Shown piece after piece: positions 14,241 through 15,914 of a stretch of 20,393 bases of DNA. Source of the DNA: a virus. Position 1 is the stretch's first letter. Every line of letters begins with the position of its first letter. Both the position numbers and the translations under genes were made by a program. The notes below the pieces were generated by a model. It saw only the letters and a program-made list of their open reading frames with translations. It had not been told where the DNA came from and did not search any database. The DNA is taken from IMG/VR virus record IMGVR_UViG_3300030380_003836, positions 1-20,393 of that record. One strand, 5' to 3'.

Positions 14241-14615
14241 CTACTTGAGGTCTATATTAATCTGGAAGTCGCCTTTAACAAGATGTTGATGTTTATCAGG
14301 TGCTTTGAATCCTGCTCGGTCTAGAATGTCCTTGCTTGCCTCAAGCTGTACGTACTCTGACTTGGCTCCACTTGCTAGATCCAGTAGCTTACTCTGTGCC
14401 TTGACTGCGGACATTCCAATAGACTTCTGTATCTCTTGAAACATATATTGCTGTACCTCTGGGGAACGTAACGCTCGACTTGCACTTACTCTTGAGCTAT
14501 TTCCCTTGTATCCTGCGACTTTCGAAGCATCGGTGATTGTACATCCTGTGGCTACGAGCGTATCAACTAACTTCTTCTGTTGTGGTGTTATTCCCTTTGG
14601 TTTAATGTTTGGCAT
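14241..14615 (-). CDS. Terminase small subunit
   Basis: The product has 124 residues. The N-terminal half is the DNA-binding helix-turn-helix region of small terminases: PQQKKLVDTLVATGCTITDA, then SKVAGYKGNSSRVSASRALRS and PEVQQYMFQEI (about residues 11-64). A middle helical oligomerisation part (SAVKAQSKLLDLASGA, EYVQLEASKDILDRAG) and a short C-terminal tail follow. The protein forms a ring that recognises the packaging site and feeds DNA to the large subunit. Here it is separated from the large subunit gene by about 2.5 kb, in contrast to the usual adjacent pair. It is the first gene of the leftward module. The ATG at 14615 has no strong ribosome site. Confidence 0.85.
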   Translation of the reverse strand: MPNIKPKGITPQQKKLVDTLVATGCTITDASKVAGYKGNSSRVSASRALRSPEVQQYMFQEIQKSIGMSAVKAQSKLLDLASGAKSEYVQLEASKDILDRAGFKAPDKHQHLVKGDFQINIDLK

Positions 14616-14626
14616 AACTAACTCAT

Positions 14627-14655
14627 CTAATATCAGACGGCAACGAAAAAGTCAA
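14627..14655 (-). promoter_or_regulatory. Candidate sigma70-like promoter for the leftward module
   Basis: On the minus strand TTGACT (14655-14650) is followed after 17 bases by TATTAG (14632-14627), with a TGA just before the -10 (extended -10 type). This would start transcription only some 5-8 bases before the small terminase ATG, so the message would be nearly leaderless. That is unusual and lowers my confidence. Confidence 0.4.
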
Positions 14656-14680
14656 CATACCTAATGTGTCTTTAGTGGAA

Positions 14681-14763
14681 GAGCACATAGTCCGTGCTCC
14701 CATGTCATAAGGACTCTTCTCTGGCAAAGAACCGTCCTTACGGTGTTCCAAAGAGGGAACACC
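14681..14763 (-). ncRNA. Three consecutive hairpins in the leader of the leftward module (candidate structured RNA)
   Basis: Three stems follow each other with almost no spacer. 14742-14763 has a perfect 8-pair stem (GGTGTTCC/GGAACACC) with a six-base loop. 14707-14741 has a 7-pair stem (TAAGGAC/GTCCTTA) whose top continues, across a 2x2 internal loop, into about six more pairs closed by a three-base loop. 14681-14699 has a 6-pair stem (GAGCAC/GTGCTC) with a seven-base loop. The region is richer in G+C than its surroundings. No T run follows, so these are not ordinary terminators. They could be a leader structure, an attenuator linked to the short frame at 14861-14835, a packaging or replication site, or a small RNA. 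I cannot choose from sequence alone. Confidence 0.45.
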
Positions 14764-14861
14764 TATCCTGCAAGACACTCTATCAATACGGGGTGCCATT
14801 TCGGGGAGGCATCTTCATTGAATGTAGTATCGAGTTACTGTTTCAGCTTTTGGTTCACCAT
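14763..14861 (-). pseudogene. Broken inverted copy of the start of the first early gene
   Basis: Read on the minus strand from the ATG at 14861, with a strong ribosome site (AAGGAGG at 14872-14866), the frame gives MVNQKLKQ, a TAA, then LDTTFNEDASPKWHPVLIECLAG and a TAG. The gene at 15091 begins MTNAKTKKVIDTTFNEELF. The two match in frame across the stop (M.N.K.K..[stop/V].DTTFNE), as does the DNA (16 identical bases, TCGATACTACATTCAA). The intact ribosome site means the first eight codons could still be translated as a leader peptide. Confidence 0.6.
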
Positions 14862-14929
14862 CTGTCCTCCTTTTTAGGTCAAATTAATGCCATTATGCCA
14901 GTAAATCATAATGTTCGAAGATGTATATG
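14812..14929 (-). repeat. Inverted repeat arm B (partner of 15025-15140)
   Basis: On the minus strand this arm reads CATATACATCTTC, about 7 differing bases, ATGATTTA, CTGGC, CATTAATTT, AAAAAGGAG, an ATG and then the coding similarity ending in GAAGA. The same blocks occur in the same order in arm A on the plus strand. The 13-base CATATACATCTTC block and a 16-base block in the coding part are perfect; the rest has substitutions and small gaps. Confidence 0.75.
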
Positions 14930-14952
14930 CTAAAGCAAGTTAGAGTTGCCAT

Positions 14953-15002
14953 CGAAAACAAGTTTTCGGACAACGGAAAAAAAAATAAACATCCGTTTAT
15001 TT
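14953..15002. repeat. Two perfect palindromes between the inverted arms
   Basis: CGAAAAC-AA-GTTTTCG (14953-14968) and AAATAAAC-ATCC-GTTTATTT (14983-15002) lie about equally far from the midpoint of the two arms (near 14977). The surrounding DNA is very A/T-rich, with two runs of A or T. They could be operator sites for a regulator, back-to-back promoter elements, or part of a replication origin. Confidence 0.5.
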
Positions 15003-15024
15003 CAGGCATTTTTTTTTCCCTAAT

Positions 15025-15140
15025 CATATACATCTTCTCTGCATCATGATTTAAAACTGGCGTCATTAATTTAACAAAAAAGGAGAACATATGACAAACG
15101 CAAAAACTAAAAAAGTAATCGATACTACATTCAACGAAGA
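15025..15140 (+). repeat. Inverted repeat arm A, covering the leader and first 16 codons of the first early gene
   Basis: This is the plus-strand partner of 14929-14812. The blocks in order are CATATACATCTTC, ATGATTTA, CTGGC, CATTAATTT, AAAAAAGGAG, the ATG at 15091 and a coding match to GAAGA at 15140. The blocks before the ribosome site are in the right place to hold the early promoter (TATACA at 15027-15032 could be a -10), but no convincing -35 is seen. Confidence 0.75.
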
Positions 15141-15576
15141 ACTTTTTAAAAAAGGCATGGAGTTGATAGAGAAATCATTTGAGGGTTTCGTTCATGATCT
15201 GTCAGATATAAGTAAATCTGACTTTGATGGAGCGGGCGAACAAGAGATTGCTCGTGAAACCAAACGTATATTGAGAGCACTTACAAGATTGCCTAAGGCA
15301 GTTCAGTCTTCTCATATGTATGCTTTGGAGCAAGCTGAAGGTAAAATTGCTGAGCGTAAACAAAAAAGTCAGCCACATGATTACCTGACTGTTCAATGTG
15401 AAAATCACATGGCTTGGCATACTAGGTACAAAGAAATATTTGACGCTACTAAGTTAATATTTCAGGATGTAACTGGTGAAAGTTACATACCTCAAACTAA
15501 ATCAGATGAAAAATCTTCTGAAGATTCAGATGAAGTACTTAATAAAATCAAGCAATTCAAGGATTCTATGAAGTAG
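15091..15576 (+). CDS. First early protein, unknown function
   Basis: This 161-residue protein is not recognised. It is hydrophilic and mostly helical, with a charged N-terminal helix (NEELFKKGMELIEKSFEGF), a central ETKRILRALTRLPKAVQ block, an acidic helix with HMAWHTRYKEIFDATKLIF, and an acidic Ser/Asp/Glu-rich tail (about 135-150). No signal peptide or membrane segment. The ATG has a strong ribosome site (AAAGGAG, 6 bases upstream). It is the first gene of the rightward module, followed by a hairpin terminator, so it may be transcribed at high level at once after infection. Its leader and N-terminus are duplicated upstream in inverted form. Confidence 0.8.
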   Translation: MTNAKTKKVIDTTFNEELFKKGMELIEKSFEGFVHDLSDISKSDFDGAGEQEIARETKRILRALTRLPKAVQSSHMYALEQAEGKIAERKQKSQPHDYLTVQCENHMAWHTRYKEIFDATKLIFQDVTGESYIPQTKSDEKSSEDSDEVLNKIKQFKDSMK

Positions 15577-15586
15577 CATCCTCGAT

Positions 15587-15616
15587 AAGGGAGTTGCAAT
15601 AACGTAACTCCCTTTT
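15587..15616 (+). terminator. Terminator after the first early gene
   Basis: A 9-pair perfect stem, AAGGGAGTT (15587-15595) with AACTCCCTT (15606-15614), closes a ten-base loop and ends in four T. It lies 10 bases after the stop codon. The T run is short, so termination may be partial, letting the downstream genes be read. It is the first copy of an element that is repeated at 15875 and, degenerate, at 15936. Confidence 0.75.
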
Positions 15617-15642
15617 CATAATAACTTAAATTGGAGAATAAA

Positions 15643-15873
15643 ATGAAATTTCATACTTTTTACAATAAATTAGCAACTCATTTACCTAAAGGTAAAGGTT
15701 ATAAGACCAACCTTTATGGTATATGGGAACATTGGGAACCAGTTGGCTTATGCGAAGAATTTATATTTTCTTTCAAGCAAGGTAGAAAGCTTGGTCTTGA
15801 CTACATATCTTCTGTTGATCATGCTTACTTGGAGTGGGATTTAGATCCATATTCAGAAAGTTTATTAAGTTAA
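15643..15873 (+). CDS. Small early protein, unknown
   Basis: This 76-residue protein is not recognised. It is MKFHTFYNKLATHLPKGKG followed by an aromatic-rich middle (LYGIWEHWEPVGLCEEFIF) and an acidic tail (HAYLEWDLDPYSESLLS). The frame is open a little further up, but the GGAG at 15633 sits six bases before the ATG at 15643, which decides this start. It lies between two copies of the same terminator-type element, so it is a separately flanked single-gene unit, as is common for early host-takeover genes of phages (an inference). Confidence 0.72.
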   Translation: MKFHTFYNKLATHLPKGKGYKTNLYGIWEHWEPVGLCEEFIFSFKQGRKLGLDYISSVDHAYLEWDLDPYSESLLS

Positions 15874-15881
15874 CATCCTCG

Positions 15882-15914
15882 AAAGGGAGTTGCAATTTCG
15901 TAACTCCCTTTTTT
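15882..15914 (+). terminator. Second terminator of the repeated element
   Basis: AAAGGGAGTT (15882-15891) pairs with AACTCCCTTT (15902-15911) over ten perfect pairs with a ten-base loop, followed by a T run (15909-15914). It is a good intrinsic terminator. It begins with the same ATCCTCGA as the first copy. The stem is kept although the loop differs (GCAATTTCGT against GCAATAACGT). Confidence 0.85.

Follow-up and report, generated by a model that had tools for sequence, protein, structure and literature searches.

The stretch of DNA analysed here, referred to as the window, comprises 20,393 nt of a 27.5-kb virus record (IMG/VR record IMGVR_UViG_3300030380_003836), and a search of a phage collection identified Pelagibacter phage EXVC031P Hodr as the nearest cultured relative of its group. 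As a preliminary description of the sequence had recognized, the window has a divergent centre: TerS (terminase small subunit) and the structural genes are leftward, with TerL, portal, and major capsid among them, and the remaining genes, namely gene 1, a RecE-like exonuclease, and others, are rightward. The window contains only one long inverted repeat, which lies at this centre (Table 1).

Table 1. Features at the divergent centre of the window
Feature	Positions	Strand	Remarks
TerS (terminase small subunit)	14241..14615	-	entered by the left arm in the Hodr clade and in L129
TerS promoter-like element	14627-14655	-	sigma70-like, weak (TTGACT-17-TATTAG); between left arm and TerS
Left arm	14778..14965	-	non-coding mirror of gene-1 leader, ribosome site, and first ~27 codons; core helix 14774-14929; ribosome-binding site and ATG (14861) retained, stop at codon 9
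Centre (loop) of inverted repeat	14930..15024	.	contains a smaller A/T-rich inverted repeat, 14975-14986 / 15008-15019
Right arm	14987..15171	+	gene-1 leader, ribosome site, and first ~27 codons; core helix 15025-15176
Gene 1	15091..15576	+	161 aa, no known family; dN/dS 0.12 vs L001
Terminator-like hairpin AAGGGAGTT...AACTCCCTT	15587..15614	+	just 3' of gene 1

On sequence grounds, gene 1 is a real protein gene. Its dN/dS is 0.09-0.5 in most pairs and 0.84 in one pair, and both gene 1 and TerS are under purifying selection. Pfam and PHROG searches with gene 1 gave no convincing match. AlphaFold2 predicts a helical hairpin, with a pLDDT of 66 for the window protein (low confidence) and 84 for that of a Hodr-clade member; the best matches in a PDB fold search were generic helical proteins, none of them significant, and the significant matches of the model among viral proteins were all unnamed or uncharacterised. 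Two gene-1 families have the same helix order in their predicted structures, and a profile comparison of the two gave no homology (1.7%). Downstream, the gene-1 terminator sequence (GGGAGTTGCAAT..CGTAACTCCC) is present twice in 15587-15912, flanking a small ORF (~15631-15873) that is absent at the corresponding place in L001; this ORF looks like an inserted cassette that may have brought or duplicated the terminator.

The preliminary description had reported an inverted duplication of the gene-1 start spanning 14812-15140. Both arms lie where it had placed them, with exact blocks CATATACATCTTC (13 nt; 15025-15037 and 14917-14929) and TCGATACTACATTCAA (16 nt; 15119-15134 and 14818-14833), and the leftward copy carries the TAA that it had noted, the ATG at 14861-14859 opening a frame that reads MVNQKLKQ before the stop. 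The duplication stands; its extent is somewhat longer than proposed, since in the fold of the minus-strand RNA 14774-14929 is paired to 15025-15176, with 127 pairs near the axis. Gapped local alignment of the arms gave a score of 138, and 2000 dinucleotide shuffles gave a mean of 34, an sd of 6, and a maximum of 66 (Gumbel p ~2e-10 for 138), which rules out chance similarity; the runner-up among the window's inverted pairs reaches 68. The left arm is likewise ruled out as a protein-coding copy by its early stop codons and by indels that break the frame. The minus-strand fold has a predicted energy of -162 kcal/mol (plus strand, -138) and is more stable than shuffles (z -14.8).

Smaller structures accompany the repeat. 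At its centre, 14975-15019 holds a short perfect inverted repeat, GGAAAAAAAAAT/ATTTTTTTTTCC; on the minus strand of this segment, a AAATAAAC/GTTTATTT stem leads into a T-run and resembles a weak terminator. Between TerS and the left arm, the leader (14640-14775) could form several more hairpins, e.g., GGTGTTCC/GGAACACC; part of it is similar to the L049 leader, and the L001 leader is longer here.

The repeat in related phages

The window repeat is a short example of something larger. Among related loci, which were chosen for TerS and TerL and cut around the TerS start, a clear inverted repeat lies between TerS and gene 1 in ~43 loci of a first set and in 46 of the 70 further loci of a second set (31 of the 46 non-redundant), and the isolate Hodr carries it at the same place. 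Some relatives have short arms only (20-55 nt) or none. The preliminary description had taken a single arm with unrelated DNA opposite as the pattern that would speak against a duplication; relatives were examined for it, and in them both arms are kept. A scan of 174 loci (1.52 Mb) found no inverted repeat scoring at least 55 away from the TerS/gene-1 centre. The scanned stretches of HTVC010P and of less related phages with similar terminases (MEP301, BcepC6B, Pmp11, and VA-RY-3) contained no such repeat. The record named EXVC031P Hodr (L002, OQ414635.1) bears locus tags of EXVC032PBaldr, and its listed proteins are all annotated as hypothetical.

Where the repeat is best developed, the right arm comprises the entire gene-1 unit (leader, gene, and terminator edge; ~520-550 nt), with a non-coding mirror of that unit as the left arm. 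For example, the right arm of L010 spans gene 1 almost entirely (431 matched columns), with the non-coding mirror 141-642 nt upstream of TerS. Arms as long as gene 1 are also found in L219, L246, L213, and L193, where the right arm ends between 17 nt before and 42 nt after the gene-1 stop, and begins, in the first three, ~70-100 nt upstream of gene 1. The left arms of several Hodr-clade members and of L129 extend ~70-260 nt into the TerS coding sequence. Most relatives have a strong intrinsic terminator after gene 1, and because a terminator-like hairpin directly follows the gene in nearly all of them, the right arm represents one monocistronic unit.

Each left leader matches the right arm of the same genome or of a close family member, and such own-matching mirrors occur across at least 12 gene-1 protein groups that are unrelated (no BLASTP link). 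Right arms of relatives differ at 1413 columns, and at 1028 of these each of the two left arms goes with its own partner; the genome pairs in this count are not independent. A single ancient duplication with independent decay is ruled out, as the left arms track their own right arm. Bulge positions are also shared: L002 and L034 have 56 nt in common (null mean 22, maximum 36), and L010 and L008 have 43 (null 8.8, maximum 22). From the shared bulge positions and from arms that follow their own partner, it follows that the hairpin persists while its bases are exchanged compensatorily.

The strongest single test of own-matching is the comparison of the gene-1 and TerS coding sequences. In seven representative genomes, the gene-1 coding sequence pairs with its own TerS at scores of 52-90, versus mostly ~20-39 with the TerS of relatives (one pair, 48), and synonymous shuffling lowers the gene-1/own-TerS score to 22-34. 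Covariation in an alignment of ten Hodr-type hairpins (A1) was 0.043 versus 0.035 and at most 0.032, above all 500 shuffles and all slides; the excess is modest because registers shift between subclades. As part of the best explanation, selection on base pairing would keep the arms complementary, a proposition for which we consider the chances about even.

Strand asymmetry of the mismatches

If the pairing is that of an RNA, departures from it are expected as G.U on the strand that folds. Among isolated mismatches of a first non-redundant set, minus-strand and plus-strand G.U numbered 51:14. The ratio was 18:2 in the group of the window, L010, L049, and L106, 49:12 in a GC-richer group, and 109:16 in a second set that partly overlaps the first. 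Single loci reached 38:0 (L129, all mismatches) and 27:0 (L193, isolated mismatches); the window repeat alone, with very few changes, has 5 versus 1. The fold of L129 is likewise stronger on the minus strand (-430 versus -322). Isolated transversions had no comparable overall strand bias, and mutational drift as the only cause was rejected: it predicts ~1.6:1, as estimated from the background composition of the left arm, and 6.8:1 was observed in the second set.

The Hodr clade is strand-neutral (90:76 and 239:251), as is seen also where TerS and gene 1 overlap in the repeat of its members (10:16). Its indels are as common as substitutions or commoner, its bulges are evenly spaced, and its perfect runs are capped at 10-13 nt versus ~20-25 nt in simulations with the same aligner. 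Thus, the constraint expected of RNA, G.U tolerated on one strand, is present in most lineages and absent from the Hodr clade. Collectively, these patterns suggest a minus-strand RNA hairpin in most lineages. In the Hodr clade, given its neutral strand test, the evidence does not single out RNA; an RNA from either strand or from both would fit, and so would a constraint at the DNA level.

Promoters and alternative explanations

The TTGAC(A/T) box of the TerS promoter-like element recurs in relatives. In the Hodr clade, this element (there TTGACA-17-TATACT) falls within the left arm, 35-67 nt upstream of TerS; outside this clade, it is located between the left arm and TerS. Owing to these positions, the left arm would fall mostly outside the expected TerS message. 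Promoter-like sites in the window region number 6 (5.3 expected), no more than chance. A conserved minus-strand promoter beyond gene 1 was looked for in relatives and not found; a TTGTAT-16-TATAAT site in L002, which is not general, would start near the right-arm end. Late leftward transcription reading round the circular genome is another possible source of minus-strand RNA. The Hodr clade (L002 12855-12900 and relatives) has a promoter after gene 1 with a strongly conserved TAGAACAAA between its -35 and -10 boxes; this sequence might be an operator or a divergent promoter that overlaps the first.

The preliminary description had read the repeat as an early promoter and leader copied for the leftward module, or as a two-sided operator. 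We consider both very improbable. The window arms do share the CATATACATCTTC block, upstream of gene 1 and mirrored, as a copied promoter would have it; however, this block is not general, leftward promoters lie elsewhere, and promoters are not found at matching places in both arms, the TerS element not being at the mirror of the gene-1 start. A double-sided control site is too small to account for relatives in which the similarity extends through whole genes: there the duplication covers all of gene 1, and the arms are complementary over hundreds of bases, coding sequence on both sides included. A DNA hairpin or cruciform serving as a signal, such as a packaging (pac) site or a replication origin beside TerS, is somewhat less improbable. 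Packaging sites of headful phages are often in or near terS, and the repeat always adjoins or overlaps this gene. However, a bound site would keep its sequence, whereas the arms differ wholly between lineages and match each other within each lineage; they are also gene-length, and the strand bias is at odds with a symmetric DNA structure. Sequencing is known to produce fold-back chimeras with indels, so an artefact of assembly or amplification might look like such a repeat, but we give this next to no credence. The repeat occupies one locus in dozens of independent contigs and never appears elsewhere, reading frames are intact, and the arms of relatives co-vary; its restriction to one site and its presence in the isolate Hodr rule the artefact out.

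The main rival is a DNA quasi-palindrome, in which template switching during replication at the centre would repeatedly copy one arm onto the other. The pairing would then be a mutational by-product with no need for RNA function, and small indels would accumulate afterwards, long perfect palindromes being unstable. Quasi-palindromes are imperfect inverted repeats whose arms are known to be homogenised by template switching (PMC8604942, PMC7202029), and both the strand-neutral mismatches of the Hodr clade and its indels, as common as substitutions or commoner, speak for this reading. Known examples, however, are usually short and scattered, whereas the repeat here is gene-length and found at one site per genome. 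Copying should erase bulges, but bulge positions are retained and shared while bases covary. Moreover, own-matching holds from coding sequence to coding sequence between orthologous proteins, where copying across bulges would shift frames, and mismatches are biased toward minus-strand G.U in the non-Hodr lineages. Bulges, coding-coding pairing, and strand bias argue against template switching as the whole story, and we regard it as unlikely.

A candidate hairpin RNA and its possible function

The explanation that we favour is that the locus encodes a self-matched, long, bulged hairpin RNA, an antisense to gene 1 with a built-in mimic; we hold it at roughly even confidence. RNA production, the RNA ends, the direction of control, and displacement by mRNA are inferred. 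Gene 1 would be a stand-alone transcription unit, with its own promoter probably near the centre and its own terminator directly after it, and the DNA across the centre would be a mirror copy of this unit. A minus-strand RNA, most likely the paired molecule, would run leftward from gene 1 (antisense) through the centre into the left arm, which in this RNA would be a non-coding, sense-like mimic of the gene-1 mRNA. With the antisense arm 5' and the weakened mimic 3', it would fold as a long bulged hairpin. The antisense arm could pair perfectly with the gene-1 mRNA and so switch gene 1 off; the mimic, weakened by bulges or G.U pairs, would mask the antisense arm until real gene-1 mRNA displaced it. 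Bulges may also protect the hairpin itself from RNase III.

Rfam searches of the window and other loci, on both strands, gave no match above the gathering score, and literature searches covering Hodr, hairpin RNAs, and inverted repeats in pelagiphages brought up no relevant work. Phage cis-antisense RNAs (lambda OOP/cII, P22 sar/ant, and P1 and P7 c4/ant) are alike in that an antisense RNA overlaps a phage gene at a regulatory junction, and in P1 c4 the antisense and its target are on one transcript. These RNAs are roughly 70-100 nt long; we know of none with a gene-length target mimic or of comparable arm-to-arm co-evolution. For plant proto-miRNA and hairpin loci, the inverted duplication model (PMC3237417, PMC1790633) holds that a stretch of a target gene is duplicated in inverted orientation, so that the RNA folds back with bulges and is complementary to the very gene it came from. 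In contrast, the present locus is in a phage, with no Dicer or Argonaute known; the target gene itself is one arm, and the arms co-evolve over hundreds of nt and may include a second protein gene (TerS). The CBASS-activating RNA (cabRNA) of staphylococcal phages is a structured, RNase III-sensitive RNA from terminase genes (PMC10686824). We regard it as a lead only: it is a sense RNA running from terS into terL in another phage group, and no inverted duplication of a neighbour gene has been described for it.

Taken together, these results point to control by an RNA (or DNA) hairpin of a kind not yet described. Tentatively, and at slightly less than even confidence, we propose a new form of phage gene control, in which each phage would make its own gene-length, self-matched hairpin RNA, with antisense sequence to the first rightward gene in one arm and an imperfect mimic in the other; in one clade, the TerS coding sequence would be part of the mimic, two protein genes co-evolving to pair. 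Nucleotide-level co-evolution is seen between the neighbouring protein genes TerS and gene 1, as well as between a gene and its non-coding mirror; across a widespread group of marine phages, the co-evolving mirror reappears at a single fixed site with gene sequences that are unrelated to one another. Should the RNA be produced, it would parallel, in bacteria, the hairpin RNAs that derive from their targets and would provide a natural test of phage tolerance for long double-stranded RNA, and the cultured member Pelagibacter phage Hodr, which grows on HTCC1062, makes direct testing possible.
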